From a virus: a DNA stretch of 64,000 bases. Both the position numbers and the translations under genes were made by a program. The stretch is from positions 124,001-188,000 of IMG/VR virus record IMGVR_UViG_3300017963_000190; one strand, 5' to 3'. A model generated the notes under the pieces. It was given only the letters and a program-made list of their open reading frames with translations. It searched no databases and was not told the origin of the DNA. Shown piece by piece: positions 34,198 through 62,309 of this stretch (positions are counted from its first letter, which is position 1; each line of letters starts with the position of its first letter).

Positions 34198-34217
34198 CCT
34201 ACTTCTGTTTTACAAGA
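34198..34217 (-). promoter_or_regulatory. Strong copy of the phage promoter-like motif
   Basis: The minus strand reads TCTTGTAAAACAGAAGTAGG, 26 nt upstream of the GTG start of the 181-aa gene. It shares TCTTGTAAA exactly with the motifs at 50.7, 58.6 and 62.3 kb and ends in AGG like the first two. There is no sigma-70-type -35 box at normal distance. Confidence 0.55.
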
Positions 34218-34231
34218 TGAAGGACGAATCT

Positions 34232-34249
34232 CTGAAAGCTTCTTTTCAG
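34232..34249. repeat. Hairpin CTGAAA...TTTCAG
   Basis: Arms 34232-34237 and 34244-34249 are perfect 6-nt complements with a 6-nt loop, just upstream (minus direction) of the promoter-like motif. A T-rich tract is not present. It could be a weak terminator for the 359-aa gene or part of the promoter region. Confidence 0.3.
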
Positions 34250-34444
34250 CCTGGAAAACTATTATTCAGCATAGGAAGCATGAACGGTGACAGATTGGTG
34301 TGATGGTAAAATGTGTCTGTGAGACAATGGAAAAATGGATCTAGCCAAAAACAGAAAAGCCCACGCGTGCTGCGCAGGCCTGTAGATGGCTTATGGTTCA
34401 GTTGCCCATTGGTATTTGGTGGCAATTGGTCTATGACCGCAATT

Positions 34445-34460
34445 GAACCGTCTCCGGTTC
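34445..34460. repeat. Hairpin with GNRA-type loop on the minus strand
   Basis: GAACCG (34445-34450) and CGGTTC (34455-34460) are perfect complements around a 4-nt loop. On the minus strand the loop is GAGA, a GNRA tetraloop that makes a stable RNA hairpin. It lies about 200 nt downstream of the 359-aa gene. No U-run follows. Confidence 0.35.
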
Positions 34461-34657
34461 TACCAAGGTTCTATTTGGATGTCAAGAAAATAATCCCCTC
34501 TCCCTCACGATTTTCTCTGGAGATATCATACGTTATTCACCAGGGGTTTACTAGGAGCATTCAACTAAAATGGTCAAAAATCTGCGATAAGGCGCACCAA
34601 TCCATCCTCGCTGGTACGCAGCTAGCAAATTCCCCCATAGGCCGCCATCTGCGCTTT

Positions 34658-35737
34658 TTAGGGAGGAGCGCGAGGCCGCGCCTCGATGCAGCGGTTCTGT
34701 ATTTGAGGGGTGCTTGATAGCTCCGCAACCGATGGATGTAGGATGTCTTGACCACGCCGCCGTTTGGTACGGATCAAGGAAAGCGCTACCAATGTAAGAA
34801 TGCACGCCTTCGCTTCGTACAGCGGGAGCCGTGGCTTCTCTTGCAGAGCTTGTACATCTGCTCGTTTGTGACAGAAAAGCTGCCACCGTGGCTCGAACGT
34901 AAGATTGGGCAGTCGTGGGAGGAGCTCGTGCTCAAAGGCTGGCAGCCTATGTAGCTGCATCCTCGTCGTGCTCTCGCAATGGTCGTGGCGTACCTCTACC
35001 TGCTCTGGATGCCTAAGCGAGTATGACCAGAGACGTCTTAGCATATCTGGGAGACGCTCCGCCAGCTTTTCGGCTACCTCTAGTGGTAAGGTTAGCTCAG
35101 TGCAATCATTGATGGTGGCCGCACGTACCTCGTCGGATCCCTTTCTTAGTACACGCCGAATCCTGAATCGGTAAGCTTTTTGGGGGGCGCACTTTCTACG
35201 CCATTCTGCACACGCAGCTTCGCGCACAGGGCCAGACGTGGCGTGACACTTGGGATGAGGGTTGCGGTAATTTGCGTTCTCACATAGTAATTCTAGGACT
35301 TCCTCTCCTAGGTAGTCCTCGAAGCCTGCATCCTGCCGGCGCAGTTGGAGCGGAGTTCTGCATAGGACACGCCTCTCTCCGAGCTCCATGTAGTAGCGAT
35401 ATTTGTCTGGACCCCGCTGCAGCCCGGCGCTGTAGGATAGGAGATGGAGGAACGTGCGGTAGAAGGCGCGCAGATGCTCTTCGTCGGAAAGGTTGTAGAA
35501 GAGCGGACGTGTTTCTTGGTGAAACCTGTAAGGTTTTCTGTATCCTAGCTGGCTAGTCCCTGTGGCGTGCTGGTTGAGCTTTGTGATCCCCAGTAGGATG
35601 GTACTGTGGGTGGGCAACAAGTACGTGCATACTTGTTCCGGGACCCCTTTCCACCACTGTCCGGTTTCAAGGGATACCAGGAAACGCGCTTCTCGCGCTC
35701 CTGGGAAGGATAAGCTATGTGGCCGACGGGGGTGCAC
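34658..35737 (-). CDS. Hypothetical basic protein rich in Arg, His and Cys (359 aa)
   Basis: A GTG at 35737 is the longest start. The strong AAGGAGG touches the GTG, so the true start is uncertain. Helix-rich segments include YNLSDEEHLRAFYRTFLHLL and VAEKLAERLPDMLRRLWSYS. Cys and His residues are scattered (residues about 165-185, CENANYRNPHPKCHATSGP; CAEWRRKCAPQ), which could bind zinc or DNA. No known family is recognised. It follows the NYN gene and ends the replication-side transcript. Confidence 0.55.
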   Translation of the reverse strand: MHPRRPHSLSFPGAREARFLVSLETGQWWKGVPEQVCTYLLPTHSTILLGITKLNQHATGTSQLGYRKPYRFHQETRPLFYNLSDEEHLRAFYRTFLHLLSYSAGLQRGPDKYRYYMELGERRVLCRTPLQLRRQDAGFEDYLGEEVLELLCENANYRNPHPKCHATSGPVREAACAEWRRKCAPQKAYRFRIRRVLRKGSDEVRAATINDCTELTLPLEVAEKLAERLPDMLRRLWSYSLRHPEQVEVRHDHCESTTRMQLHRLPAFEHELLPRLPNLTFEPRWQLFCHKRADVQALQEKPRLPLYEAKACILTLVALSLIRTKRRRGQDILHPSVAELSSTPQIQNRCIEARPRAPP

Positions 35738-35755
35738 CTCCTTATTTTACAAGGA
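35737..35755 (-). promoter_or_regulatory. Weak copy of TTGTAAAATA motif at the end of the NYN gene
   Basis: The minus strand reads TCCTTGTAAAATAAGGAGG, spanning the NYN gene stop codon and the AAGGAGG ahead of the 359-aa gene. The core CTTGTAAAATA matches the strong site at 62293. Its position would leave almost no leader for the 359-aa gene, so it may be only a stop/SD coincidence. The flanking CTCCTT/AAGGAG is also palindromic. Confidence 0.3.
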
Positions 35756-36712
35756 GATCTCCCGATTCTCGCCGCGGGCGTCCTGGGTACTGTCGTTCTG
35801 GACGGTGTCTATTTTGACGTCGACCTTTTTTGTCTCCGTCTTATTGGAGGAATCTTCATTAGATTCGATTACTTGGGCTACTAGCTCATGTCCTGGATTG
35901 AGGCGGCAGGCACTCACCTTGTTCTGCGTGCCGTCGACATTGTCTACGTCGTAGATGTCGACAACCCCAGCATCCACAGCACGCTGGAACAGCTGCTGCT
36001 TGAGCTCAGGGGTGCGCATCCCGTCCAGGCGCCACATCACCTTGTTGATGAAATAGCGAGCTCCCACGAAGGGCATTCGATCTTCGCTGCTATGTAGCAG
36101 CCGGATAAGTGCATCGAATGGGTAAGACTCGATGTTGGCTGATGGTTTCTTATCCACAGGCGGCGCTTCGTCGCTGTCGTCCTTGAAAATGGCGCGGCTC
36201 GGGAGATAGATACAGCTGTCGCGCGACAGCACGCGCCGGTCACGTGGGTAGTTGCCTACTAGAATGACAGTGATCCCCCTGCTGATTGCTTGTCGAGCCA
36301 ACGCTGTGTAGTCGGTAGGGCCGACAATCAGGATGCAGATTTCAATGCTGCCGTGCAGAATTTCTGTGTGAGCGTCAAAAAGCAGGTGGAGGTTTACGTC
36401 GTCTTTCGTTACCCCCTGTGCAGTCGTGGCCACCGGAGTAATGCCCCGTTTCAGCCATTCTTCTGCATCGAGCCCATCGGCCTCCTCCATCACAGTGGTG
36501 TAGTAAACCACAGCTTTGGATAAGCGCCCAGATGTACGAGCAAACTCCTCAATGGGGGGAGCTAGTACAGAGTCCTCGTTGTGGTTGTCGATCAACACGG
36601 CGTCCAGATCTACAAAAAGCCCGACATTGGGGCGTGATCTCATACCGATGATGCGGTCCTGTAGGGAGCTGAATCCGCGGTCTGTGTGTTGTCTGGATCT
36701 CTTGTTGTGCAT
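35747..36712 (-). CDS. NYN/LabA-type PIN-like nuclease with C-terminal helical domain (321 aa)
   Basis: I start at the ATG at 36712 (GAGGAG, 9 nt spacing). A longer frame would run into the helicase gene. N-terminal NYN features: NVGLFVDLDAVLIDN (D35), a central GVTKDDVNLHLLFDA (D104/D105) and ILIVGPTDYTALA (D134), followed by GITVILVG. In typical family members the third motif is SGD-D-F; here it is GPTD-Y, so one acidic position differs. Residues 196-290 form a winged-helix-like region. The likely role is RNA cleavage. It is 16 nt downstream of the UvrD helicase gene. Confidence 0.7.
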   Translation of the reverse strand: MHNKRSRQHTDRGFSSLQDRIIGMRSRPNVGLFVDLDAVLIDNHNEDSVLAPPIEEFARTSGRLSKAVVYYTTVMEEADGLDAEEWLKRGITPVATTAQGVTKDDVNLHLLFDAHTEILHGSIEICILIVGPTDYTALARQAISRGITVILVGNYPRDRRVLSRDSCIYLPSRAIFKDDSDEAPPVDKKPSANIESYPFDALIRLLHSSEDRMPFVGARYFINKVMWRLDGMRTPELKQQLFQRAVDAGVVDIYDVDNVDGTQNKVSACRLNPGHELVAQVIESNEDSSNKTETKKVDVKIDTVQNDSTQDARGENREISL

Positions 36713-36728
36713 TTTACTATTCTCCTCG

Positions 36729-38825
36729 CTAACGCCACCCTGCTTGTCTGCGTTTCCCTCTTCGTCGTCCTCTTCCTCTGCGCTTCTTTGCGTCCAACGC
36801 GCGTAGTAAATAGCTGCCGGCATTGGTGTTGCTCATGTCCGCATACGCCACGGTGTCTCCCATCTCTTCTATGAATGGGGAAGGCATGCAGTCCATGTAT
36901 TGATTGAAGCGGAGCTCGCGTCTAGGCCATGTTACGGTGAGCTCACGCTCCGCCCGAGTTAGAGCGACGAAAAATATACGTCGTTCCTCTTCCAAGTCTT
37001 CTTGCAGCTGACCCTCGGACTTGGGGTTACCGTAGTCATCGGTGTCCTTTATAATGGGCATAAGGCCGTCCGTCGCCCCCACTACATACACCTGCTTGAA
37101 CTCCAAGCCCTTCGCAGCATGACACGTCATCAGGTGCACGTGGTTGCCATCTGTTTCCTCGTCTGTGGATTGCATGAGGGCAGCCCATTCCAAGAACCGC
37201 AGCAGTCCCGCTCCATGGGTGGCGTCAAATTCATGGGCTGCAGCAATAAGCTCCTGGAGGTGATTGAGCTTGTCGATGCCCTTTTCGGTTGAGTCCTTCT
37301 TGAGATGGGTGGCGTACCCCGAAAGTTTGGCGGCTTGTTCTATGATAGGTGCGACCTTATCTTTGGGCATTGTACGCAGGCTTTTGAATATTCGCCGCAG
37401 CTCCTCTGCCCCAGCTCTGGCTTGCCCTGTGAGGACTTCGTCATGCAGCCTCTTTTTGAACGCTTGCATGACAGTTAGGTTCCTCTCTTCCTTCGCTGTG
37501 TAGAATTTAGCGTAGCTCACTTCCCCAAAACGCCGCGGTGGTTTGTTGTAGATGCGGATGAAGCTGCTTTCGTCTGCCCCGTTCACGACGAGCCGCAAGT
37601 ATGCTAGGATGTCTTTTACTGTGGCCCTGTTGTAGAATCCGATGCCGCCTACGACTTTATGTGGAACATTGTGGGTGACCAGCAGTTCCTCGAATATCCG
37701 CGATCGAAAGTGAGCTCGGTAGAGCAAAGCGAAGTCTCGAAACTCTGCTTGACCTGCGCGTACGGCAGATGTGATCTCGTCTACCACAGCCGCACCCTCT
37801 TGCCTATTGTCTTGGTAAACCACACATCGGACAGGACTTCCTTCCTTGATCACAGGTTTGATGCTTTTGTCGGGTCGGTCTGGGTTGTGCGCAATGACGG
37901 AATTTGCCACCTCAGCAATAGGAGGTGTTGATCTGAAGTTCTCTTCTAGGAAGTAAACCGAGACATCCTTGTAGTCTCTTTCCATGAGCTTCAGATTTTT
38001 GGGCTGCGCTAATCGAAAGGCGTAGATGGATTGGTCACCATCTCCCACCACAAACACGTTCCCCCAGTGGCTAGCCAAGTACTTCACCATCTCGTACTGG
38101 CTGACGCTTGTGTCCTGGGTCTCGTCCACTAGTAGGTGCCTTGTCCAGGTTGAGTATTTGGTCCGCACGTCCTCATCATCTCGCAGTAGGCGTACAGTGC
38201 GCATGATGAGATCGTCAAAATCGACGGACTGATTGCGGCGCAGGAAGTAATTGTACTTATCGTAAACCTTGGCGTAGAAGAACTCTTTTTCATCCCCTCC
38301 GCCTTGGTCCATTAGCTGGTCAAAATACTCGTCGGGAGTGATCAGGTGGCTCTTGAGTCGAGATATGAATCTCTTAGAGCAATCTGGATTCCGCCAGTCT
38401 TTCCATCCCCTGATCTCTTTCTTGTCCTTTTCGGTAACTATTGCTGTTGCCTGGACCAGGTAGGACTTGGTGTCGTCGTCATCGCAGATCGTGAACCCGG
38501 AGCTGAGCTGCGCTCTTTCGTGCTCTGCACGAAGGATTCTAGCTCCCAGGGAGTGGAAGGTGGAGATGACTATTTTCTTGGCACGTGCCTTCGGAACCGC
38601 GCCTTGGACACGTTCTCGCATTTCGTTGGCAGCCTTGTTTGTGAACGTAATGGCTACCACGTGGGTTGGTGATATTTCGTGGTGTTCCACAAGGTGCGCT
38701 ATTCGGTGAGTGATCACCCGGGTCTTGCCTGACCCTGGTCCAGCAAGGACAATCGCTGCTCCGTCTAGGTGCTCTACTGCCGATTTTTGCGCAGGGGTTA
38801 ATCCAGTAAGGTAATCTTGGGACAT
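36729..38825 (-). CDS. UvrD/PcrA-like superfamily 1 DNA helicase (698 aa)
   Basis: All main SF1A motifs are present: LTPAQKSAVEHLDGAAIVLAG with Walker A GPGSGKT (residues 29-35), ITFTNKAANEMRERV (motif Ia), DETQD (234-238) with GDGDQSIYAFR (261-271), then FRSTPPI, a VHLMTCHAAKGLEF motif and VALTRAERELTV near the end. It acts in replication or repair as a 3'-5' helicase. The C-terminal end is a basic RRGRGRRRGKRR tail that may aid DNA binding. It is 14 nt downstream of a small gene and encoded with the clamp and exonuclease. Confidence 0.9.
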   Translation of the reverse strand: MSQDYLTGLTPAQKSAVEHLDGAAIVLAGPGSGKTRVITHRIAHLVEHHEISPTHVVAITFTNKAANEMRERVQGAVPKARAKKIVISTFHSLGARILRAEHERAQLSSGFTICDDDDTKSYLVQATAIVTEKDKKEIRGWKDWRNPDCSKRFISRLKSHLITPDEYFDQLMDQGGGDEKEFFYAKVYDKYNYFLRRNQSVDFDDLIMRTVRLLRDDEDVRTKYSTWTRHLLVDETQDTSVSQYEMVKYLASHWGNVFVVGDGDQSIYAFRLAQPKNLKLMERDYKDVSVYFLEENFRSTPPIAEVANSVIAHNPDRPDKSIKPVIKEGSPVRCVVYQDNRQEGAAVVDEITSAVRAGQAEFRDFALLYRAHFRSRIFEELLVTHNVPHKVVGGIGFYNRATVKDILAYLRLVVNGADESSFIRIYNKPPRRFGEVSYAKFYTAKEERNLTVMQAFKKRLHDEVLTGQARAGAEELRRIFKSLRTMPKDKVAPIIEQAAKLSGYATHLKKDSTEKGIDKLNHLQELIAAAHEFDATHGAGLLRFLEWAALMQSTDEETDGNHVHLMTCHAAKGLEFKQVYVVGATDGLMPIIKDTDDYGNPKSEGQLQEDLEEERRIFFVALTRAERELTVTWPRRELRFNQYMDCMPSPFIEEMGDTVAYADMSNTNAGSYLLRALDAKKRRGRGRRRGKRRQAGWR

Positions 38826-38839
38826 TGTTTGCCGCCTTA

Positions 38840-39064
38840 TTAGGATACGGCGTCGCTGGCTTCCTTGACCTTCTTCATCGCCGCATGATGCCTACGATTT
38901 TTGGCTTCGTCTATCGCTGCTTGAACATCCTGTTCGTCGAGACCGCAGGGCTTGTATCCGTAGTACGTCTTAAATTCTCTGCGGAGTGTCTCTAGCTTAG
39001 AGAGTATCTTCTTCTCGTAGTTCTGTACGTCTTTCGCATCCTCGTCTTTTTGCTGGTTCGTCAT
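38840..39064 (-). CDS. Small hypothetical basic/acidic helical protein (74 aa)
   Basis: I choose the ATG at 39064, which overlaps the upstream stop in an ATGA arrangement and has GGAG about 9 nt upstream. An alternative ATG at 39079 is too close to the same GGAG. The protein is charged and helical (NYEKKILSKLETLRREFKTY, AAIDEAKNRRHHAAMKKVKE). No motif is seen. It lies between the clamp-side gene and UvrD and is possibly a helicase accessory. Confidence 0.6.
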   Translation of the reverse strand: MTNQQKDEDAKDVQNYEKKILSKLETLRREFKTYYGYKPCGLDEQDVQAAIDEAKNRRHHAAMKKVKEASDAVS

Positions 39065-39648
39065 AGACCATCTCTCCAATTGTCTGCGGTTTCTAAATGC
39101 GTGGCCCCATCACTGAACCCCGCCTCATCGTGCGCTCTGGTTTTTCCTTTATAGACTAGCAGGTAGTCGCATACACCAATGCCTGCCTTATACAGGCGCA
39201 TGTTGTCGTCGGTAGCTATGGGAGCTGGATCCTTACGTCGCACATCTTTTTTGTCGGTGTAGCAGATCGCTACGTACCATGGATAGGCATGGATAACTGG
39301 TGTGCCCACAAACATCAGGATGTACCCGAGCAGCCGCTCGCGACTAAACTTAGCTGAGCGGCCGTAGACGCCCAGAAGGGATACCGTGTCCCCGTGCTGC
39401 TTGATGGTCTTGGTGACCATCTCTTCGTCGTGGGCCAACCCCTTTAGCTTCAAAACGAAGCCGTTGTCCTCGCAGGTAGTGAGGAAAGTCTTGTCGTAGG
39501 CGTCCCAATTTTTCGTGGCCAGCTTTATTAGTCTCGCGAGCTTTCCACGTCCTCTCTGTGCTTTTGTAAGTCCACCTGGGATAGGTAGTACTCGATTGTG
39601 CCGTCTTGTATATTTTCGGCCCTTACGATTATTTGCGCGCGATTCCAT
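39061..39648 (-). CDS. Hypothetical basic protein overlapping the clamp gene (195 aa)
   Basis: The ATG at 39648 is preceded by AAGGATTGAATC, a plausible ribosome site, although the first 121 nt overlap the 3' end of the clamp gene. The N-terminus (NRKGRKYTRRHNR) is very basic. The body has beta strands (GYILMFVGTPVIHAYPWYVA) and conserved-looking acidic residues. No family is recognised. I cannot exclude a shorter protein from an internal start, but no better start with a ribosome site is visible. Confidence 0.5.
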   Translation of the reverse strand: MESRANNRKGRKYTRRHNRVLPIPGGLTKAQRGRGKLARLIKLATKNWDAYDKTFLTTCEDNGFVLKLKGLAHDEEMVTKTIKQHGDTVSLLGVYGRSAKFSRERLLGYILMFVGTPVIHAYPWYVAICYTDKKDVRRKDPAPIATDDNMRLYKAGIGVCDYLLVYKGKTRAHDEAGFSDGATHLETADNWRDGL

Positions 39649-40742
39649 GATTCAATCCTTAGCGGCGCAACATCTGGCGCCAGCGCGACCACTTCCGTAA
39701 AGTATAGTTGATTGACGTATATGATGTGCGGCTCACCATCTCCGAGCTCGATCCTCTCAGATGGTATAGTGGACAGAGCTTTGTTTTTCTCCTGCCTGGC
39801 CGCCATCTGCACCTTTTTGGGAGTCACTCGGATATTGAGTACGAGTGGAGTACTGTCCGACGAAACACTTTTGATGTCGTTCAGCGCCTCCATCATATCC
39901 TTGCGCTTCACTGAGAACTTGCTGTCACAGACTCCAGCTATCGTGCTCTGGTACGCCTGCTCCGCATCTTGGAACGGAAGGTCCAGGGTAGGGTAGAATA
40001 CGTCTGCGTCCTCTGTCTGGAATCTGACCATGGAGGCCATCTCTTCTTCTGCGCGCGTGTGCACACTTATTACTACCTCTTTTGCGGTGACGCTGTCAAG
40101 TATTCTTCCCAAGGCAGTTGGCTTCAAAATAAATTTGGTGGAAGTCCGCACTTTTACTGTGGGAGATATCCGGACAAACCGTGCATAGCTGAAGAAGTCA
40201 ATGCCACAGATGTCGAGCCGGTTCGCCTTTTTCCCGCGTCGAAACTGGAACTGCATTCTGAGGTCATCCACCTTGAGGATATGCTTCAATTCTACCATAG
40301 AAGCCGCGGCGGCCAACATAGCGGTGGGTAATTTGACCACCGCTTTAAGGTTAGTAATGTCCGGCTGCGCGGTCTTGAATAGGTCCTCTGAATCCGTATC
40401 CAAGGCGAGATTGAACTTCGATTTTTTGTTGGAAATCTCTATTTGATCTGCGTCGTTTTGCGCGTCGAGCGTGAGCTCTCCTGAGAGGCGCAGTTTCGAT
40501 ATAGAATCGAGCTCAACGTACGCTCGTCCGGGCCGCATCACTGTAGCAGGAACGGCGAGTTTCACGTAGGCTCCCAGAAAAGTCGATTCCACGAACAGCC
40601 CCTTTTCTGTCACCGTGAGCCTCCCCTTCATGGGAATAGGCTGCTCATCCTTCTTTTTGGTCTTGGGGTCGCTTAGTCTCTGGAGAGCTAGTGCAGCCTT
40701 GATGGCTTTTTTGAACTCCGTGGCCTTAGTAGTGGCTTTCAT
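39528..40742 (-). CDS. Sliding clamp, DNA polymerase III beta-like (404 aa)
   Basis: The fold is that of a beta-type clamp. A GRLTVTEKGLFVESTFLG strand set and a VPATVMRP segment occupy domain 1. Further domains contain FYPTLDLPF and a C-terminal NQLYFTEVVALA, followed by APLRIESWNRAQIIVRAE and YYLSQV, which correspond to the terminal strands of beta clamps. The length is slightly above the usual 370 aa. The clamp tethers the phage polymerase to DNA. It is encoded 4 nt overlapping the exonuclease gene stop and followed by other replication genes. Confidence 0.75.
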   Translation of the reverse strand: MKATTKATEFKKAIKAALALQRLSDPKTKKKDEQPIPMKGRLTVTEKGLFVESTFLGAYVKLAVPATVMRPGRAYVELDSISKLRLSGELTLDAQNDADQIEISNKKSKFNLALDTDSEDLFKTAQPDITNLKAVVKLPTAMLAAAASMVELKHILKVDDLRMQFQFRRGKKANRLDICGIDFFSYARFVRISPTVKVRTSTKFILKPTALGRILDSVTAKEVVISVHTRAEEEMASMVRFQTEDADVFYPTLDLPFQDAEQAYQSTIAGVCDSKFSVKRKDMMEALNDIKSVSSDSTPLVLNIRVTPKKVQMAARQEKNKALSTIPSERIELGDGEPHIIYVNQLYFTEVVALAPDVAPLRIESWNRAQIIVRAENIQDGTIEYYLSQVDLQKHREDVESSRD

Positions 40743-41689
40743 CGTGCTTCACGCTCGTTTCTGGTAAGCAGCCTTATCACATTTTCTTCGATGAGGATGT
40801 CATTCTGCTGACAAAATCTATGGAGCCTGCTCTTCGAGGCCGCGCCGGTCATGTTTTTTACGCTCAGTGCGTCCCTGGCACGTACCAGATCGAAGTTTCT
40901 TTGGGCCTCTCGTCTATGTTTTACAACACGCTCAAGCTCCCTTGTACTAATGACCTGCTGCGCTTTGGCTGCTCGGTAAGCATCTCTGGGGCAAGTTCCC
41001 ATGGCCGCGAGCTTTTTTATCGATGCTGTGCGCATGCGTGGGACCGCTCGGGGGATGTTGTCCGCCGGATCCCCCAAGAACGCTTTTAGACAAGCCACGT
41101 TCCTCGGAAGCACGCCCAGCACTTCCTTGCATTTGGATGCATTTATGATCCCAAGCTTTTGAGTTTCCACCACAATTCTGTCACCCTGGATCACTTGCCA
41201 TAAGTCTCTATCTTCGCTAACCACGGTGATCTCCGTTTGTGGGTGCCTATTTTTTGCCCACACTGCGATAGCATCATCAGCTTCACCTTGTGGAGCTCTC
41301 GTCGCCCGGATAGCTAGATTTTCCAATAGTTTCAGAGATTTCATGTAGGTTTGCATGACCTCTATATTCTGCACCCGTTGGGCTTTGTAGCCGTCCCATA
41401 TCCTTCGTCGGTGCTGCTTCCCAGCTCCCTCTAATGCGCATACTAGTGTCGCATTTGGGTACCTTTTTCGTAATTTCGCTAGCATCAACATCAATAATTT
41501 CATGGTCTTGGACTGACGTTTTTTAACATAATAGTCATGCAACTGCTGATTCTCTAATGATTCCAGTTTTCTATCTGTGTTGACTGAATAAAATGCACGG
41601 TAGACCACGTTCGGCCAGTCCATTACAACCTGTTGATTATAATGAGGAAATATTCCGGTCATGCCTGTTTCCGGTATTGTGCTTTTCAT
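40739..41689 (-). CDS. FEN/5'-3' exonuclease (RNase H-like flap nuclease) (316 aa)
   Basis: The ATG at 41689 fits the leader of the minus promoter at 41729-41757. An upstream extension would run through the promoter region. Motifs: VVMDWPNVVYRAF (D24), CALEGAGKQHRRRIWDGYKA (E87, Arg/Tyr-Lys arch residues), GEADDA (136-140), VSEDRDLWQV (D160, D162) and FLGDPADNIP (D207, D210). These are the two-metal sites of the FEN family. E87 sits where Asp is usual. It removes RNA primers and flaps. The next gene is the clamp. Confidence 0.85.
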   Translation of the reverse strand: MKSTIPETGMTGIFPHYNQQVVMDWPNVVYRAFYSVNTDRKLESLENQQLHDYYVKKRQSKTMKLLMLMLAKLRKRYPNATLVCALEGAGKQHRRRIWDGYKAQRVQNIEVMQTYMKSLKLLENLAIRATRAPQGEADDAIAVWAKNRHPQTEITVVSEDRDLWQVIQGDRIVVETQKLGIINASKCKEVLGVLPRNVACLKAFLGDPADNIPRAVPRMRTASIKKLAAMGTCPRDAYRAAKAQQVISTRELERVVKHRREAQRNFDLVRARDALSVKNMTGAASKSRLHRFCQQNDILIEENVIRLLTRNEREAR

Positions 41690-41709
41690 TTTGACTTTCG
41701 CATTTATGG

Positions 41710-41738
41710 TTGACAATGCACTTACCAGAGTATATACT
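41710..41738 (+). promoter_or_regulatory. Consensus sigma-70 promoter reading right, drives the small plus-strand gene
   Basis: TTGACA at 41710-41715 and TATACT at 41733-41738 with a 17-nt spacer. Transcription would start near 41745 and reach a strong SD and ATG 37-40 nt downstream. It is the best host-like promoter in the window. Its -10 overlaps the -10 of an opposite promoter. Confidence 0.75.
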
Positions 41739-41757
41739 ATGAATGTAGGAGTTGTAA
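41729..41757 (-). promoter_or_regulatory. Sigma-70-like promoter reading left, drives the exonuclease and clamp operon
   Basis: On the minus strand, TTACAA (plus 41752-41757) and TATACT (plus 41729-41734) with a 17-nt spacer. The -10 lies in the palindrome AGTATATACT shared with the plus promoter. Transcription would start near 41722, about 33 nt before the exonuclease ATG. The -35 matches consensus at 4 of 6 positions. Confidence 0.55.
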
Positions 41758-41782
41758 TTCTTTTTTGAAAGGAGCAGCCGCC

Positions 41783-47855: not shown

Positions 47856-50582
47856 TCAGCAGCTAGTGTACCCGCATGATTCACACCACGGGCATTTTCC
47901 TGGTATTTGCACGTAAGCAGCTATACCACAGTCTGGGCAAATGTCTGGGTGGGCGCCTACTATGCTGTCTGTGTTCTCAGAGCTGTCAAACGCGCTTGTG
48001 CTTCCTTTACTCTTCACTATAGTGCTGATTTCTGGACCGGTCTCGTCTTTACCAGTTATCTCTTGGATGAAGTCTTCGAGTCGATCCTCTCCAAGGGGTA
48101 TATTTGACAGCGGGAAATTCCCGGACAAGTAGTCGTGGATGATCTGCGCTATTCCGTCTGGAAGGGATATCACCTGGTTCGTGCCGAATCCTACAGACCC
48201 CTTTCCCGGAATCTTGTGTAGTTGGTCTCTGATAATCTCCAGTCTTGTTTCCTGGGAGATGTATTCCCCGTTTGGCCAGCGTAGGATGGCAGACACGAGC
48301 CTTCCTAATGCTTGTACGTCTGCGGATACATCTCCTTTGCCGCTGACGAGGAACATGTCGTACGGGTCACCGCTTTTTGGATGCATGCGTATAGTTCCAT
48401 GTACCCTCCCCACCGGGGTGTCCTTGCTGTGGGTAACGCTCAAACCAAAGTCGATTTTGGGTCGTAGATCCCCAATGCTTGGATTTTTGTACTCGTCCAC
48501 TACCTGCACCGGTATGTACCCGTCATCCCCCTCGGTTTCCTCAGTCTCCGCTGACTTATAGTAGAGAACTTGCCTGTCCCGCGACTCGTCTCGATACACC
48601 GTTCCACCTTTGCACCCGAGCTCGTACATTAGCATGTAGGCCGATGCTACATCTTGTTTGGTAGCTGAGTTGGGGAGGTTGACCGTCTTAGAGATGGATG
48701 CGTCCACCCATTTTTGCGCGGTAGCTTGTGTTCTTACATGCTCTTCAGGAGTGATGTCTTTAGTGGTCACAAAATAGTCTGGAGAGTTGTCGCCGAATTG
48801 CTGGCGTATCTCTCCAAGCACACTGGCCTCTTCGTTTGCAGATCCTATACGGCTCCTGGCGATCCATGAGGGAAGGAAGTAAGGCTCGATTCCTGTAGTG
48901 GTGTTGAGCATCGTTCCCACAGATCCTGTAGGTGCCACAGTATTGAGTGTGACGTTTCTGACTCCATGCTGACGGATGTCAGTTACGAGATTGTGGTCCT
49001 CTTGTAGAGTTTGTATGAAACCGGAGCTGACAAATTTTCCTGCATCGAATTTAGGGAAAGGCCCGCGTTCCATCGCGAGCTCACAGGAGGCACGGTAGCT
49101 TTCTGTAGCTAGCAGGCGGAACAGCCAGTCGGTGAATACGAGCGCTTGCTCGGATCCGTATCGTAGCCCTAGTCGTATGAGCATCTCTCCGTAGCCAAGG
49201 ATACCTAGTCCTACTCGCCTCTCTGATTTTTGCTGCGCCTCGATCTTCGGGTCGTGGTACACGTTAAGATCGGTGACGTTGTCTAGGAAGCGTACTCCCA
49301 TGTGAACCGCACGTATGAAGTCTTCCGACTGGAACGATTCCATCGCCTCTGCGGCGGCAACTTCTTGTGGGGGTAACTTACCAAGATGCACGAACTGCGA
49401 AAGGTTGAGGTGAGCTAGATTGCAGATACCATATGGGGGCAAGAATTGCTCGCCACATGGATTTGTGCAGGTAAGTCTATTATAGTAATAAGAGTTGGAC
49501 AGTTTGTTAGCACGCTCCAGAAAGAGGATCCCTGGTTCGCCACTTTCCCATGCGTGGTCGATGACAAGCTGCCATAGCTCCTTTGCCTTCATGGTTTGGA
49601 ACACTTTTATTGGACGTTCCTGCTGCCGCCATTTGTCGATGTTCCCATCCCATTCTTTATCATAGGACGGGTGTGTGATGTCGGGGAATACCAACTGCCA
49701 ATCATCGTCATTCTTTACGGCATTCATGAAATCATCGGATATCAGCACCGAGACATTTGAGTTTTCTAGGAGTCCTTTGTTGCGCGATATCGTCTGTCCC
49801 CCTGCTCTGAACTCCATCCGTTGCGCTTTCGCGGTGACGAACTCGATGATGTCTGGGTGCCAAATCCATAGGCCCTGAAGAGACGCCCCTCTCCTGGATC
49901 CCCCTTGTTCCACGGCCCCGGTTATTTGTGAGTATTGTTCCATCCAACTGACGGCGCCGCTTGATCGCCCATTCACCTTCCGCACCACCTCGCCGCGGGG
50001 TCTGTGTGTACTGTTATCCCATCCAATCCCACCACCTAGGCTGAATGTGTCGAATAACTGCTCCCAGTGCTTTGCTATCCCTTTTCTGGAATCGTGGGGA
50101 GCTGGAAACACGTAGCAGTTGAAAAAAGTGAGCGTTCGATCCTTACAGCCAAGACCGGCCAGGATTCTCCCTGCTGGGATGAATCTTCGCTCTACCATCG
50201 CTTTGAATACCTCGTCCCTAAACGCTGTATTCTGCGGCTCGTCCGCTATGATTCCGTTGGATACCCGACGGCAAACATCCTCGTAAGTTTTTTCTAGCAG
50301 CACTTCGATCTTGTCTCGTGGAACTGCTTTCGCCACCTCCCACTCATCTTCGTTTTTGTCGCGATCCACCAAGGCCACATCATACCGCCTATCTCCCGAC
50401 TCGCTCTCCACTATTCTCAGCACGCGCCCCAACTCCCTGGACTCGATTTTCTCGCCGTCTTTCTCGAACACCCGCTGCAGCGCAACAATCACATCGTCCC
50501 CATCCTGCACTTTAGTGGTAGCATCCTTACGCGCGTAGCGATCTGCTAGGATTCGATCTTGATAAGCACCCGATTGAGACAT
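47856..50582 (-). CDS. nrdJ: Ribonucleotide reductase, adenosylcobalamin-dependent class II (908 aa)
   Basis: The ATG at 50582 has GAGGAGG upstream. The catalytic core shows FFNCYV (C156), SLGGGIGWDNS, the NPCGE motif (N374, C376, E378) and GICNLAHLNLS (C387). C376 would be the thiyl-radical Cys and C156/C387 the redox pair, by family knowledge. The last 25 residues hold four Cys (CPDC, CPWCESCGYTSC), a zinc or redox tail. The absence of a small radical subunit nearby fits class II. It makes deoxynucleotides for phage DNA. A phage-promoter-like motif and a leader hairpin lie upstream. Confidence 0.85.
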   Translation of the reverse strand: MSQSGAYQDRILADRYARKDATTKVQDGDDVIVALQRVFEKDGEKIESRELGRVLRIVESESGDRRYDVALVDRDKNEDEWEVAKAVPRDKIEVLLEKTYEDVCRRVSNGIIADEPQNTAFRDEVFKAMVERRFIPAGRILAGLGCKDRTLTFFNCYVFPAPHDSRKGIAKHWEQLFDTFSLGGGIGWDNSTHRPRGEVVRKVNGRSSGAVSWMEQYSQITGAVEQGGSRRGASLQGLWIWHPDIIEFVTAKAQRMEFRAGGQTISRNKGLLENSNVSVLISDDFMNAVKNDDDWQLVFPDITHPSYDKEWDGNIDKWRQQERPIKVFQTMKAKELWQLVIDHAWESGEPGILFLERANKLSNSYYYNRLTCTNPCGEQFLPPYGICNLAHLNLSQFVHLGKLPPQEVAAAEAMESFQSEDFIRAVHMGVRFLDNVTDLNVYHDPKIEAQQKSERRVGLGILGYGEMLIRLGLRYGSEQALVFTDWLFRLLATESYRASCELAMERGPFPKFDAGKFVSSGFIQTLQEDHNLVTDIRQHGVRNVTLNTVAPTGSVGTMLNTTTGIEPYFLPSWIARSRIGSANEEASVLGEIRQQFGDNSPDYFVTTKDITPEEHVRTQATAQKWVDASISKTVNLPNSATKQDVASAYMLMYELGCKGGTVYRDESRDRQVLYYKSAETEETEGDDGYIPVQVVDEYKNPSIGDLRPKIDFGLSVTHSKDTPVGRVHGTIRMHPKSGDPYDMFLVSGKGDVSADVQALGRLVSAILRWPNGEYISQETRLEIIRDQLHKIPGKGSVGFGTNQVISLPDGIAQIIHDYLSGNFPLSNIPLGEDRLEDFIQEITGKDETGPEISTIVKSKGSTSAFDSSENTDSIVGAHPDICPDCGIAAYVQIPGKCPWCESCGYTSC

Positions 50583-50696: not shown

Positions 50697-50713
50697 CCTA
50701 TTACTTTACAAGA
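50697..50713 (-). promoter_or_regulatory. Strong copy of the phage promoter-like motif upstream of nrdJ
   Basis: The minus strand reads TCTTGTAAAGTAATAGG, differing at one position from the plus-strand site at 58591. It lies 115 nt upstream of the reductase start in the gap after the Zn-ribbon gene. Confidence 0.6.
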
Positions 50714-54263: not shown

Positions 54264-54276
54264 AAAGTTCATTTAT

Positions 54277-54309
54277 AGGTAACCTGATTCCCAGCAGTTC
54301 TTGTTACCT
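54277..54309. repeat. Second inverted repeat in the divergent junction
   Basis: AGGTAAC (54277-54283) and GTTACCT (54303-54309) are perfect 7-nt complements separated by 19 nt, a spacing that suits a two-site operator as well as a hairpin. It lies between the first repeat and the candidate -10 boxes. Confidence 0.4.
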
Positions 54310-55515: not shown

Positions 55516-55542
55516 GGGACGTCATCGCAAAAGGAGTCCGAG

Positions 55543-56388: not shown

Positions 56389-56401
56389 GTGATAAAGGTC
56401 C

Positions 56402-57646: not shown

Positions 57647-58575
57647 GCTGCCAAGGTCGTCTCCATTCTTTTTACCAGTCGATACAATCTATTCAAGTGG
57701 GGCATCGGCATATTGCCCGGATCTTTCTTTTCTGGGCACATGAAATGCTTCACCGGGAACATCTCCATCAAACTCGCAGCGATGTCATAGCGAACCCCTT
57801 CTCCTCCTTCGTCCCCATCCATAGCTACCACAACGGCTTCGGCATTCGCATTGATTAAGTGGGTACGATTACTGTCGTCGTAATTTCTCGTTCCCATTAT
57901 TGCCAGCGCGGGGATGTTGTAGTTGACGAGCCGCAGCGCATCGTACGGCCCCTCTACTAAGACGACCACTTTCCGATTCATGGCTATGACCGCGTCTAGC
58001 GGAAAGAGCACATCCTTGGAAGACATGTTTGGTGCATTTCGGTAGGGCTTCAGGAGCTTCTCGCCAGGCGGCGCCTCGTCTAGCCGTCTCGCTACCCACC
58101 CCTTTACCTCGTCGTACATCATTACTGGAAATAGAATACGTTCCGCACGTATGCGTGGATCGTCGTCGAACCACCCAAAGGCTCCAACGCGTTTTAAGGT
58201 TTTCACGCGGAGCCGACGCCACGGCTTTGTCCAGGGGCGTAGCCCCCAAGGGAGGTCCACTTTCGCCATGGCCTTTTGGTAGCGCTTTTCCATTTTGTGC
58301 GCGAGCACTAGAAAATCGTTGGGCCGGTTCTCCTCTGTGAGCGTGTCTACTTTGATGTAGTTGGCGATGTAGTCCCACTTGGATCCCTTTACGCCGCAAC
58401 CAAAGCACAGAAATGCGCCGTCGAGGCGGCGGATACTCAGGCTAGGGGTCTTGTGGTCATGTCCTCGGAAGCAGAATGCTTTGATGTTCTCCTGGTTGCT
58501 ATCTCCCATAGAGACGCGCACCCCCGCCGCTTCGAGCTGGGCTACAATAAAGGTGGACAGATCTGATTCGGCCAT
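57643..58575 (-). CDS. DnaG-type DNA primase (310 aa)
   Basis: The zinc-binding part shows C35...H39 (FCFRGHDHKTPSLSI) and C57-x-x-C60 (FLCFGCGVKG). The Toprim domain has VVVLVEGPYDALRL (E208) and VVAMDGDEGGEG (D253, D255). At 310 aa it is shorter than cellular DnaG and has no C-terminal helicase-binding domain, as common in phage. It makes primers. It is alone on the minus strand in a plus-strand block, with its own promoter-like motif upstream at 58630. Confidence 0.85.
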   Translation of the reverse strand: MAESDLSTFIVAQLEAAGVRVSMGDSNQENIKAFCFRGHDHKTPSLSIRRLDGAFLCFGCGVKGSKWDYIANYIKVDTLTEENRPNDFLVLAHKMEKRYQKAMAKVDLPWGLRPWTKPWRRLRVKTLKRVGAFGWFDDDPRIRAERILFPVMMYDEVKGWVARRLDEAPPGEKLLKPYRNAPNMSSKDVLFPLDAVIAMNRKVVVLVEGPYDALRLVNYNIPALAIMGTRNYDDSNRTHLINANAEAVVVAMDGDEGGEGVRYDIAASLMEMFPVKHFMCPEKKDPGNMPMPHLNRLYRLVKRMETTLAA

Positions 58576-58590
58576 CGTGCCTCACATTCG

Positions 58591-58607
58591 TCTTGTAAAC
58601 TAATAGG
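58591..58607 (+). promoter_or_regulatory. Strong copy of the phage promoter-like motif
   Basis: TCTTGTAAACTAATAGG, 49 nt upstream of the Cas4/RecB-like nuclease gene, in an 80-nt gap that also serves the divergent primase gene. It matches the minus-strand copy at 50697-50713 at all but one base. Confidence 0.6.
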
Positions 58608-58629
58608 TAGTGCACCGCATGCCTTCACC

Positions 58630-58642
58630 TTGGTTTTACAGC
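58630..58642 (-). promoter_or_regulatory. Weak copy of the motif for the primase gene
   Basis: The minus strand reads GCTGTAAAACCAA, 55 nt upstream of the primase ATG. It shares TGTAAAAC with the site at 34198. Together with the site at 58591 it makes a divergent pair. Confidence 0.35.
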
Positions 58643-58655
58643 ATTGGAGTAGTAG

Positions 58656-59588
58656 ATGGGCATTTTTGACATCCCAAAAGCAGAGAAATTCCCAGCTGGA
58701 CTGGAAAAGAGCTTTGGAGATATCCGCTACGGCCGCCGGAAAGTCCGACAGCGTGAGTACGAGGAGCTCCGCGCCAGCAATCTTCCTGTGTGCCCTCGGG
58801 CCTACATTATATACAGGCGCTCACCTCTGCGCAAGAGGCCTCTCGTGGAGGAGACTTTCATCAGCGAGACAGCCACGTTGTTGGGTACCGCGCTGCATTT
58901 AGTGCTTCAGAAGTGGTTTGGTTTGCAGGGGCACCTTTTTGGGAACTGGGTTTGCGTACACTGCAAAAAGATTCGCCGCCATCAGCTGGGAACGCAGAAG
59001 TGCGTCGAGTGCGGGCGCGAGATGATTTACCATGAGTACGCAATCAAACCGAGCAAGTACGCACCTTTTAGCGGGCACATCGATGGCATCCTGGTGCTGC
59101 CTAATGGCACAATTTATCTTATCGATTTTAAGGGTAGCAGTGTTCCAGCCATCCGGGAAATAAAGAAAAATGGGCGTCCTAAGGAGAGCCACTACTTGCA
59201 GGTGAACGCCTACGCTCACGCGGTCAACAAAGATCTGAAGCGTTTCGGGCTGACTGAAAAAATCCAGAAGATAATTATTATCTATGTAGACCGCGCCCAG
59301 CCTTGGAGAACGTGGTTGCCCATGCAAGTCCCCTTGAGTAGGGAGCTCTACAGGGAGGCTGTTGGACGAATCCACTACACCCGCGAGTGCCTTAAAACCG
59401 GTAAGGTTCCGCGTGGTTTGTGTGTTAGCCCGTCGGATGAGTACGCAAAGTACTGCCCCTGGCGGCAGGTATGTTTTTCGCCGGTGATCGAGGGACTGCT
59501 CAGCGATGATGTTGAGCCTGAAAGCAAAAAACAGGAGGTGTCAGAGCAGCAGCTACTCGCTTTGGCTGCTTACTTAGAATCTCATTAG
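58656..59588 (+). CDS. Cas4/RecB-like PD-(D/E)XK nuclease with Fe-S and zinc cysteines (310 aa)
   Basis: RecB-type motifs: GTALHLVLQ (H81), SGHIDGILVLPNG (D143), YLIDFKGS (D157, K159) and QVNAYAHA. A first Cys at 46 (CPRAY) and three late Cys (256, 267, 273) match the four-Cys Fe-S cluster of Cas4/AddB-like enzymes. An insertion at residues 99-122 holds two CxxC pairs (CVHC, CVEC), a separate zinc ribbon. It is a likely DNA exonuclease for recombination or end processing. The ATG at 58656 has GGAG upstream. Confidence 0.75.
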   Translation: MGIFDIPKAEKFPAGLEKSFGDIRYGRRKVRQREYEELRASNLPVCPRAYIIYRRSPLRKRPLVEETFISETATLLGTALHLVLQKWFGLQGHLFGNWVCVHCKKIRRHQLGTQKCVECGREMIYHEYAIKPSKYAPFSGHIDGILVLPNGTIYLIDFKGSSVPAIREIKKNGRPKESHYLQVNAYAHAVNKDLKRFGLTEKIQKIIIIYVDRAQPWRTWLPMQVPLSRELYREAVGRIHYTRECLKTGKVPRGLCVSPSDEYAKYCPWRQVCFSPVIEGLLSDDVEPESKKQEVSEQQLLALAAYLESH

Positions 59589-59619
59589 TTGCCACTTAGT
59601 CACTGAAAGGATGCTTCTC

Positions 59620-60126
59620 ATGACCGACTACAGAGACGCCCCGGAGCCGGATGCTCCTGAAGATACAGTTACAGAGGGAGAAGATTTATCGAGGCAGGAC
59701 GCTATTGATTTTGTTGACCGAGAGATTGATAGCACGGAAGACATCGAGAGTCTCAGCGTCGAAGCCTTTGTCACTTTAGCCATTCTTCGGGTAGTGCGCT
59801 CGCCCGAAGATGTTCGTGTTCATGTTACGAGGTCGCAGCGCATGGTAATTTTGGAATACGAGGTTCGGGAGGACGACATTGGTCAGGTAATAGGGCGGGG
59901 TGGCCATACAATAGATGCGATACGTTCCCTAGCCAAGTCTATCACCGGGAAGGTAGAGGATTCTTCACAAGAGGAATCTGAGGAGCGCCCTCCACATAAT
60001 CCTGTAGAGTACATCATCAAACTTATCGATGATACTGGATCCCCAGTAAGATTTGGGAAACCGAGGGGAGATCGTAGGCGCCAGGGGCACTTCCACCGGA
60101 ACCGGCGGGGGAGGTATCGTCGTTAG
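59620..60126 (+). CDS. KhpA-like KH-domain RNA-binding protein (168 aa)
   Basis: The ATG at 59620 has AAAGGA 8 nt upstream; an earlier ATG at 59611 overlaps it and is less likely. Residues 45-112 (LSVEAFVTLAILRVVRSPED, then ILEYEVREDDIGQVIGRGGH) align with KhpA/YlqC, a type-II KH fold with GRGG at 92-95 as the GxxG loop. The N-terminus (1-44) is acidic; the C-terminus (from 145) is an Arg/Gly/His-rich tail (GDRRRQGHFHRNRRGRYRR) that would add RNA contact. Its likely role is RNA binding and post-transcriptional control. It overlaps the SWIM gene stop. Confidence 0.75.
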   Translation: MTDYRDAPEPDAPEDTVTEGEDLSRQDAIDFVDREIDSTEDIESLSVEAFVTLAILRVVRSPEDVRVHVTRSQRMVILEYEVREDDIGQVIGRGGHTIDAIRSLAKSITGKVEDSSQEESEERPPHNPVEYIIKLIDDTGSPVRFGKPRGDRRRQGHFHRNRRGRYRR

Positions 60127-60740
60127 GGGATCTCAATGAGTCCTCCGCTGCGGGGAGGCCGTGTGAACTGTTTGACTGGGATCCTCTTTTCGCGCGCTTT
60201 CTTCTCCATTCCCGCAGCCTGCGTAGCCGCCGCGCTTTTGGCTTGCGCTTCCACTTGGATCCTCTCCGCAGCGAGGTCGTCTCTTTGTTGGAGCGCCAGC
60301 CGTGAGGCCATCACCAAATGCTTGCAGAGGTGGGGGATCATCTGTCGATTGCGCTCGCGAGGCAGTTGCCCATTCGACAACTTAATGGAGGAGCTGTTGC
60401 GCCTAGTGTTCGCTACTTCACAATTAAAGGTGTAGTAGGGACAAGAGCACCATACCCAGACCGGCGTATCCTTCCCTGGGGGGCCAAAAAACCGTACATA
60501 CGAGGCACGCTTCCCATCTGTGCATGTCAAGTACGTGCGTAGTTCGTTGTAAAAAGTTTTGTCTTTTCGGTAGGATCGCTTGAAGCCTTCCCTACTCCCC
60601 ACCCCGTATTCCTTGCGGATCACGTGACATTGTGTGTTGGCACGCTTGATGATCTCTGGGTTGAACCGTGCCGTGAGCTGCGCCAGCTGACCTAGCGTCA
60701 TGCGATTTACAGGGGTGGCGGCGTAGCGTTTTTTCGCCAT
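60123..60740 (-). CDS. SWIM zinc-finger protein (205 aa)
   Basis: I use the ATG at 60740 (GGAG upstream); a longer frame would run through the promoter of the sigma gene. The SWIM motif CxC...CxH is at C98-S-C100 and C139-K-H141 (VWVWCSCPYY; IPHLCKHLVMA). SWIM fingers bind DNA or partner proteins. The N-terminal 95 residues are basic and helical. It is divergent from the sigma gene and convergent with the KH gene. Confidence 0.7.
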   Translation of the reverse strand: MAKKRYAATPVNRMTLGQLAQLTARFNPEIIKRANTQCHVIRKEYGVGSREGFKRSYRKDKTFYNELRTYLTCTDGKRASYVRFFGPPGKDTPVWVWCSCPYYTFNCEVANTRRNSSSIKLSNGQLPRERNRQMIPHLCKHLVMASRLALQQRDDLAAERIQVEAQAKSAAATQAAGMEKKAREKRIPVKQFTRPPRSGGLIEIP

Positions 60741-60757
60741 TTTACGCTCCAAAAGTG

Positions 60758-60786
60758 TTGACTCAGATCCATGACTGTACCATACT
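60758..60786 (+). promoter_or_regulatory. Sigma-70-type promoter for the phage sigma gene
   Basis: TTGACT at 60758-60763, 17-nt spacer, CATACT at 60781-60786. It lies 45 nt upstream of the sigma-factor ATG. The 9-bp inverted repeat at 60765-60799 covers its spacer, -10 and start region. Confidence 0.6.
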
Positions 60787-60799
60787 CGGACATGGATCT
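60765..60799. repeat. Perfect 9-bp inverted repeat over the sigma-gene promoter
   Basis: AGATCCATG (60765-60773) and CATGGATCT (60791-60799), 17 nt apart. Placement over a promoter between divergent genes suggests an operator, but a hairpin is also possible. Confidence 0.55.
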
Positions 60800-60830
60800 C
60801 TAGAGAGTAACTATCGCGGGATACCTCCTG

Positions 60831-62264
60831 ATGCAGACACAGTCGACCTCGGATGACTGGCAAACGTTCAACGCTTTGGCTGAGCGCACGCTTCAGGAAG
60901 CCCCTCTTCCTAAAGATGAGCTCACCAAACTGTTTATTCGTATCGAAAAACTAATATATTCGGGGATTGGTTATCTATTAAACACGACCACCTTTACTGA
61001 AGACAACCTTTGCTATCTCCTTGCCGAGATTGCTTCAGGCGTTATCAAAAGCAGGAAGGTGTACAAAGGGCGCCGGATCCGAAGGCGGATACCACTTACC
61101 GAAGAAATCGAAATGGGATCCGAAAACAAGCGGATCTTCGGCATCGGTTTCGATTTGTTCAAGCTATCGCGCATGAGTAGGGAGGAGGCGGCACCTCTGG
61201 TAAAGCGTATTATTCGTACTCTTCGTGTCTCTACCAGCACCTATGAAAGTATGCTGCTCACGTTTGCCAAGGAGGGTCAGAGGTATCGGGATCTGTCGGA
61301 TGAGCTCACCGAGGTAACCCTTGATCTTCTGGAGCAGCGCCGTAAAAATAGCAAGCGCGCCACAAAGGGATCCTTGGCCAAAGAAGAAAGCTTGACCCTG
61401 GAGGCTTCCAGGATGATAGACGAACTGGAAATCGTGGAGATGAATGTTGGGTGCGTTGAGCGTAATTTTCTCTACGGTACCATACGAGCCATAGACCTCA
61501 TTGTTCGTGAGATCCGACGTTTGCAGGAACGCATACTGCGGGCATACTCCAGGCTCATCTTGAAGCCTGTGCGTGATAGAGCTCAGGGAGAGATGGAGGC
61601 TCTGGATTTGTTTCAGTCCGGCAGCCTAGGTCTCGCGAGAGCCATCTCTTTATATGATGTAAGAAGTGGCACCAGTTTCCCCACCTTTGCCACTTGGTGG
61701 ATTCGACAGAAGATTTTCGGGAGCATCAAATTCCGCGGCCCGCTAATCAAGCTACCTGGGTCTGTGCTTGAGAAGTACCAACAAATACGCGCAGCTGAAC
61801 GCCACTTCAGCTCAGACCCAGAAAAGCACTCTTCCTACACGGTGGAGGATATCGCAGCTTACTGCAAGACCTCTGTGAAATCTGTGGAGCTCGTGCGCAA
61901 GAAAGTGCAGAGCACGCAGGTCATATCCTTGGATTCGATGGTCTATGATAATGAAGAGGGCTTCGAGAACGAGTCGGCTACCGATCGAGCCCTCCTAGAT
62001 GATTCATTAGAAGAAGAGGAAGAATTTGCAGCACGGCAGGACTTTGTGGAGTCTGTGTTAGACCACCTGGAGCCGGACCAGCGCAATCTAGTGTGTCTTC
62101 GCTACGGAGTTATTGACAGCGTAAAGGTTGAGTTAAGTCCTCGTCAGGTTCTGCGTGAGACATTCCGTCAAGCAGCGTGTAGAGCAATTTTGCAGAGGTC
62201 TATGGCGGTCACCGCGGATGAGCGTCTGTCTCTGCTTCGTCCAGAAGAGCTTCCTCCCGAATAA
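60831..62264 (+). CDS. Sigma-70 family RNA polymerase sigma factor (477 aa)
   Basis: Region 2 (236-300) is clear: ALDLFQSGSLGLARAISLYD then SFPTFATWWIRQKIFGSI, the hallmark of regions 2.1-2.4 including -10 contacts. Region 3 (305-365) and 4.1 (404-427, LDHLEPDQRNLVCLRYGV) are recognisable. Region 4.2 (434-458) is shortened: the usual V-T-R-E-R-I-R-Q-I-E helix-turn-helix is replaced by SPRQVLRETFRQAACRAILQ. A 230-residue N-terminal extension has no known domain. It would direct host RNA polymerase to phage promoters. No strong SD is visible before the ATG at 60831. Confidence 0.8.
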   Translation: MQTQSTSDDWQTFNALAERTLQEAPLPKDELTKLFIRIEKLIYSGIGYLLNTTTFTEDNLCYLLAEIASGVIKSRKVYKGRRIRRRIPLTEEIEMGSENKRIFGIGFDLFKLSRMSREEAAPLVKRIIRTLRVSTSTYESMLLTFAKEGQRYRDLSDELTEVTLDLLEQRRKNSKRATKGSLAKEESLTLEASRMIDELEIVEMNVGCVERNFLYGTIRAIDLIVREIRRLQERILRAYSRLILKPVRDRAQGEMEALDLFQSGSLGLARAISLYDVRSGTSFPTFATWWIRQKIFGSIKFRGPLIKLPGSVLEKYQQIRAAERHFSSDPEKHSSYTVEDIAAYCKTSVKSVELVRKKVQSTQVISLDSMVYDNEEGFENESATDRALLDDSLEEEEEFAARQDFVESVLDHLEPDQRNLVCLRYGVIDSVKVELSPRQVLRETFRQAACRAILQRSMAVTADERLSLLRPEELPPE

Positions 62265-62292
62265 ACTTCCTGCGTGTAGGATTTCGCTTCTG

Positions 62293-62309
62293 TCTTGTAA
62301 AATACGAGA
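62293..62309 (+). promoter_or_regulatory. Strong copy of the phage promoter-like motif upstream of the SSB gene
   Basis: TCTTGTAAAATACGAGAG starts at 62293, 63-79 nt upstream of the SSB ATG, in a 107-nt gap after the sigma gene. It shares TCTTGTAAA with three other sites. Confidence 0.55.

Follow-up and report, generated by a model that had tools for sequence, protein, structure and literature searches.

A recurrent intergenic motif of an uncultured jumbo phage as a candidate phage-specific promoter, and a phage-encoded sigma factor as its probable reader

Introduction

What is the short sequence that recurs between the genes of a 64,000-nucleotide (nt) stretch of viral DNA, and what reads it? 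The stretch (the window) covers positions 124001-188000 of IMG/VR record IMGVR_UViG_3300017963_000190, a genome of 260,067 bp that is called G000 here. The core of the signal is CATCTTGTAAAATA, present in dozens of copies in G000 and its close relatives, placed before genes and pointing into them. The motif itself, its enrichment, orientation and conserved spacing, its conservation in relatives, and the intact, divergent sigma gene that accompanies it are all observed directly. Taken as a whole, they are most probably explained by a phage-specific promoter class read by a phage sigma factor of 477 amino acids (aa) on the host core RNA polymerase, an explanation that can be held with considerable, though not complete, confidence.

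G000 encodes a contractile-tail sheath, a DNA polymerase of PHROG 17, topoisomerase II, a UvsX-like recombinase, a clamp loader, SbcC/SbcD, ribonucleotide reductase and about 37 tRNAs, and this gene content, together with its size, identifies it as a jumbo tailed phage. The tblastn matches of its polymerase are annotated as polA/family A, and its sheath is phiKZ-like. Megablast of 20 kb of the window against named phages found no near DNA relative, and relatives in IMG/VR were reached through searches with the tail sheath and the DNA polymerase; single-protein scans with the sigma factor, the exonuclease and the single-strand-binding protein (SSB) gave no matches, and alignment queries succeeded for the sigma factor and the exonuclease. 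The best relative, G001 (349,793 bp), shares 143 reciprocal best hits with G000 at a median protein identity of 50%. A distant relative, G012 (108,580 bp, 38% G+C), carries much of the replication set. Three phages found through the sheath (G003, G004 and G005) share essentially the sheath alone with G000 and were used as negative controls, G005 additionally giving weak, distant matches to the sigma factor and the polymerase. Their sheaths are 59-70% identical to that of G000, with almost nothing else tested in common, which may be a sign of module exchange between otherwise different phages. Genes were called with a simple in-house caller that leaves 18.6% of G000 intergenic and places some starts and small genes only approximately. 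All results are sequence inference on uncultured genomes, and G001 and the other relatives are possibly incomplete. A host was sought in bacterial genome contigs and not found, and none of the matches listed from the open-access literature was a phage paper reporting the motif (subscription papers were outside the scope).

Enrichment and orientation of the motif

Exact copies of TCTTGTAAA in the window lie at 34209-34217 and 50705-50713 on the minus strand and at 58591-58599 and 62293-62301 on the plus strand. These are the four strong copies that the original prediction, made from the window alone, had described as intergenic and directed toward the next gene, and all of them are present as placed. 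Its statement that the motif is missing from inside genes also holds, no exact copy being seen within the genes of the window on either strand. One-mismatch copies are not enriched there (17 against 11.3 +/- 3.2 expected), so that the window by itself is only suggestive.

The whole genome is far more informative. G000 contains 11 exact copies of TCTTGTAAA against about 2.0 expected (order-2 Markov model; Poisson P = 9e-6), and a reversed control pattern occurs once. All 11 are intergenic (P = 9e-9 from position alone) and co-directional with the next gene. In G001 the same is true of 18 out of 18 exact copies (P about 3e-16, again from position alone). Moreover, TGTAAAAT and TTGTAAAA head the list of enriched 8-mers in the sense intergenic DNA of G001 and are among the top ones in G000, and the reversed control of the 8-mers revealed no enrichment. 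The genome-wide weight-matrix scan that the original prediction had suggested adds sites with a clear fall-off in score and supports a promoter class; matches scoring at least 16 are intergenic and co-directional or lie within same-strand genes, several of them at the extreme gene end. In the control phages, exact cores are found within genes only (G003 and G005) or not at all (G004).

Anatomy of the motif

In a logo built from 49 sites in G000 and G001, the consensus is C(A/G)TCTTGTAAAATA with purines after it. None of the 49 sites deviates at TTGT or at two of the A that come next, and the flanks are strong. The strongest conservation falls not near -30 but on TCTTG, directly joined to a -10 element TAAAAT (-12 to -7), and the purines that dominate motif positions +13 to +21 coincide with the transcription start expected 7 nt after TAAAAT. 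The element had been described as devoid of a normal -35 box. This is correct for TTGACA, whose best match 15-19 nt before the -10 element averages 2.98 of 6 positions against 2.78 in shuffled DNA (P = 0.037), with 5-6 matches in just 2 of the 49 sites. The description overlooked a weak AA located 12-13 nt ahead of the motif (around -30/-29) in 20 of the 49 sites, where other upstream positions mostly give 0-7 and at most 12; it is weaker than a MotA box. Distances from site to gene start vary from 9 to several hundred nt. Two sites lie 9 nt before the annotated start, which would leave the mRNA with almost no leader, provided that the start codon has been called correctly.

Conservation before orthologous genes

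Among the reciprocal best hits of G000 and G001, a site precedes both members in 5 pairs, only one member in 4 and 6, and neither in 128 (Fisher P = 1e-4). Alignments of upstream DNA display the motif as a conserved island amid diverged sequence, which in the case of the DNA polymerase extends to seven contigs. Distances from motif to gene start are equal for the exonuclease (56/56), the sliding clamp (177/177) and a small gene (35/35), as well as for the DNA polymerase (289/289 nt), whose copy in G000 is degenerate. Support for the original proposal of a phage-specific -10-type element thus comes from the weight matrix, from a second, related genome that is independent of the first, and from this conserved spacing, and the motif is best read as a phage-specific promoter.

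A phage sigma factor as the probable reader

Two proteins of G000 contain sigma region 2, with lengths of 477 and 296 aa. The former, the proposed reader, is encoded at 60831..62264 on the plus strand and belongs to PHROG 351; its region 2 matches Pfam Sigma70_r2 at 40.9 bits against a cut-off of 24 (E 6.9e-12), its residues 229-453 match SigA structures (phmmer E 1.7e-19), and no Pfam match to region 4 was obtained. The N-terminal domain of about 228 aa is seen only in its relatives and in G012. Orthologues with 63-64% identity are present in G001 and in G009-G011, and each of them comes with the motif between the sigma and SSB genes and before the exonuclease. Regions 2.1-2.4 are the best conserved part of the protein (80-87% identity versus 47-65% elsewhere). 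In region 4.2 the helix-turn-helix of all four orthologues looks shorter by about 4 residues, a situation that would fit weak -35 reading and the absence of TTGACA, and the recognition-helix signature of SigA survives there wholly or partly, as RExxRQ in three of them and as ETLRQ in G012.

The second sigma factor (296 aa; positions 40287-41177 of the record) is more like an ordinary sigma-70, with regions 1.2 to 4. No orthologue of it was found in G001, whose clear sigma factor is of the 477-aa type. Since orthologues of the 477-aa protein accompany the motif and the 296-aa protein is absent from G001, it is probably the former that reads the motif. The original prediction had invoked a modified RNA polymerase, probably with a phage sigma factor. 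The sigma factor is retained on grounds of co-occurrence, since G001 shares the motif and has an orthologue that is 64% identical, and the modification of the polymerase is unneeded because the host core polymerase and a phage sigma factor suffice.

A host-type promoter, TTGACT-N17-CATACT, can be read at 60758..60786 (plus strand) before the 477-aa sigma gene, and the G001 sigma gene is preceded by a copy of the motif. With these promoters, the sigma factor may be early, and self-reinforcing in G001. In the proposed mechanism, the 477-aa protein, placed behind the host-type promoter in G000, would be made early, bind the host core RNA polymerase and direct it to the CATCTTGTAAAATA sites. There, TAAAAT would act as the -10 element at -12 to -7, TCTTG at -17 to -13 would replace the usual extended -10, and the weak AA at -30/-29 would make a small additional contact on the upstream side. 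The expected transcription start lies about 7 nt past TAAAAT, within the purine-rich stretch, and the sites would turn on replication and nucleotide genes, plus some further operons.

Alternative explanations

The most serious competitor is that the host's RNA polymerase, using the host sigma factor, transcribes from these sites, helped by a phage activator in the manner of T4 MotA/AsiA, and that the phage sigma factor serves other promoters. Indeed, TAAAAT resembles a sigma-70 -10 element fairly well, an activator could contact the AA at -30/-29, and there are other unexplained motif classes, such as CTCTATACAAAA, that a sigma factor could read. However, conservation peaks not at -30 but at TCTTG, joined to the -10 element, where sigma regions 2.4/3.0 bind, and the DNA-reading part of the 477-aa sigma factor is its most conserved part, which makes this scenario unlikely. 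Reading of the motif by the 296-aa protein is much less probable still: it is the more complete sigma-70 protein of the two, covering regions 1.2 to 4, but it lacks an orthologue in G001, a possibly incomplete genome in which copies of the motif are nevertheless no fewer than in G000. Equally improbable is that the sites are directional signals other than promoters, for example RNA processing sites or mRNA leader elements. They are strand-specific and located in leaders, as such signals would be, yet their widely varying distance to the gene start, their presence beside tRNA genes as well as within an upstream gene, the -10 geometry of the core and the purines downstream all speak against this reading. 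Chance recurrence in AT-rich intergenic DNA, with which the lack of enrichment of near matches in the window alone would agree, is already refuted by the results from two genomes, the reversed controls, the orthologous positions and the control phages without enrichment.

Several points weigh against promoters read by the 477-aa sigma factor. The start sites and the time of action of these promoters have been deduced from the DNA, and the specificity of the sigma factor is based on co-occurrence within one clade. The sigma factor of G012, 32% identical to the 477-aa protein and followed by the same SSB, comes without the motif: TCTTGTAAA is not enriched in that genome, and a promoter motif of its own was sought there and not found (too little intergenic DNA and high A+T). 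Most gaps of the structural cluster are without a site and many operons there lack the motif, and no copy precedes the sigma gene of G000, the G001 gene having one. In addition, with RExxRQ kept in region 4.2 the ability to read a -35 box may not be lost, and the structure model of the sigma factor is poor in region 4 (mean pLDDT 54).

Sites and target genes in the window

At the left of the series, TCTTGTAAAACA (motif 34206..34217, minus strand, exact core) stands 36 nt before the gene at 33627..34172 (minus strand), and G001 has TCTTGTAAAATA at 33 nt. This gene is the first of the hub-side operon and is kept in G001 and G012, and its product has no family match in Pfam or PHROG. Of three weaker copies in the original prediction, the one at 35743..35754 (minus strand; CCTTGTAAAATA, weight-matrix score 16.0) turned out to be a real conserved site, lying 128 nt before the gene at 34658-35617/35737 and matched by the same CCTTGTAAAATA at 127 nt in its G001 orthologue. 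The degenerate copy TGTAAAATA at 9592..9606 (minus strand) precedes the gene at 9261-9557, whose G001 orthologue has a perfect site at 50 nt. The third, TGCTGTAAAACCAA at 58630-58642, is weak (score 9.8) and lies on the minus strand, toward the primase. A further conserved site had been overlooked: TGTTGTAAAACA (40917..40928, minus strand) is placed within the upstream gene, 177 nt before the DNA polymerase sliding clamp (39528..40742, minus strand; PHROG 947 processivity factor, E 2e-9), and its counterpart TGTTGTAAAATA in G001 is likewise within the upstream gene at 177 nt.

The ribonucleotide reductase large subunit (47856..50582, minus strand; PHROG 84, E 3e-129; Pfam Ribonuc_red_lgC) is preceded at 122 nt by TCTTGTAAAGTA (50702..50713, minus strand), which has the exact core, and its site in G001 is the weaker CCTTGTAAAACT at 150 nt. 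On the plus strand, TCTTGTAAACTA (58591..58602) lies 56 nt before a Cas4-like PD-(D/E)XK exonuclease (58656..59588; PHROG 1706/2506, Pfam PDDEXK_1) and is kept at 56-58 nt in G001, G009, G010 and G011. Finally, TCTTGTAAAATA (62293..62304, plus strand) separates the sigma gene from that of a likely SSB and has the same place in G001 and G009-G011. The SSB candidate (62372..63691, plus strand) gave no Pfam or PHROG match; zinc-ribbon-like cysteines and a long acidic tail can be read from its sequence, and its orthologues are 46-51% identical.

The annotated targets are thus mainly replication and nucleotide genes, namely SSB, exonuclease, reductase, clamp, dCTP deaminase and DNA polymerase, the last of these clearest in G001. 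Other targets are sites beside tRNA genes and the operon running from 34172 toward large genes of probable structural function. The regulon first proposed (SSB, nuclease, reductase and hub-side operon) was right in kind and is larger, now including the clamp, the DNA polymerase, the dCTP deaminase and the tRNA-region sites. Because the targets are mainly replication and nucleotide genes, they point to a middle rather than a late class, and the motif class looks closest to middle promoters. A separate late promoter class likely exists. Immediately after several of the tRNA genes (G000 208-258 kb) comes a copy of the motif.

Comparison with known systems

The system is of the same kind as the T4 gp55 system and the predicted promoter classes of phage CBB, and it differs from them in sequence, targets and sigma factor. 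T4 late promoters (TATAAATA) and their sigma factor gp55 also combine a short -10-type element lacking TTGACA with host core polymerase and a phage sigma factor. However, TATAAATA is not matched by the consensus C(A/G)TCTTGTAAAATA, and T4 gp55 promoters drive structural (late) genes whereas the targets described here are mainly of replication and nucleotide function. Unlike gp55, the present sigma factor is large and RpoD-like, with recognisable regions 2-4 and a long N-terminal domain. In SPO1, the phage sigma factor gp28 drives the middle gene class on host core polymerase, from promoters that carry -35 and -10 elements. G000 resembles SPO1 in encoding a sigma factor and departs from its middle promoters in showing no -35 consensus beyond the weak AA at -30/-29.

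In CBB/GAP32, host-type promoters have been predicted in the early arm, a second class (TGAAACG with a TATA -10 element in CBB) before DNA-synthesis genes and a third candidate class, the late ATAAATA of CBB, for structural genes (PMC5259590). The likeness lies in phage sigma factors and comparable promoter classes, in phages and sequences that differ. Group 2 jumbo phages also encode RpoD-type sigma factors (PMC7824862), but they have a family B polymerase and a gp23-type capsid, where G000 has a PHROG 17 polymerase and a phiKZ-like sheath. The G000 sigma factor differs from theirs in its N-terminal domain.

Other promoter-like motifs

Another intergenic motif that recurs and lacks a -35 box is CTCTATACAAAA(T), located at the genome arms (G000 19-66 kb, outside the window; G001 6-32 kb and 341-349 kb). 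G000 has 12 copies, 10 of them sense intergenic, and G001 has 10, of which 8 are sense. The motif is possibly a further phage promoter class. Many host-type promoters of the form CTTGACA-N16/17-TTATACT occur at 4-65 kb and 222-250 kb of G000. TTGACAtCGTAaCAAaGCGACTTAT is a repeated sub-type of host-type promoter, all 11 of its copies lying in sense intergenic DNA. A further repeat, GGGTTtAACCCTCACGCGTTACCAT, has about 20 copies at 20-50 kb of G000; its opposite strand reads TTGACC-N17-GGTAAC and it contains the palindrome GGGTTTAACCC, so its sequence suggests a divergent promoter that carries an operator. A de novo search for a late motif brought up a single weak candidate, AGTTAYNYTAT, which precedes some structural genes, and then drifted into early -10 boxes. 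This candidate has 2 sense intergenic copies in G000 and 5 in G001 and none inside genes, examples being record positions 127229 and 145282 of G000 and 43881 and 117337 of G001.

Significance

In its boldest form, the proposal is that the 477-aa protein is the founding member of a new family of phage sigma factors, distinguished by an N-terminal domain of its own and a shortened region 4.2. It would read a fused TCTTG/-10 element and command the replication programme across a jumbo-phage clade, in a cascade that also has early promoters of host type, a CTCTATACAAAA class and late promoters of a separate class. This proposal is tentative, its chances being somewhat short of even. An uncultured jumbo-phage clade gains a testable regulatory code, consisting of a defined promoter, a named sigma factor and a list of targets, and the motif becomes a tool for locating gene starts and operons in the metagenomic phages of the clade. 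The system would also offer a natural case of an RpoD-like phage sigma factor that reads promoters almost without a -35 box.

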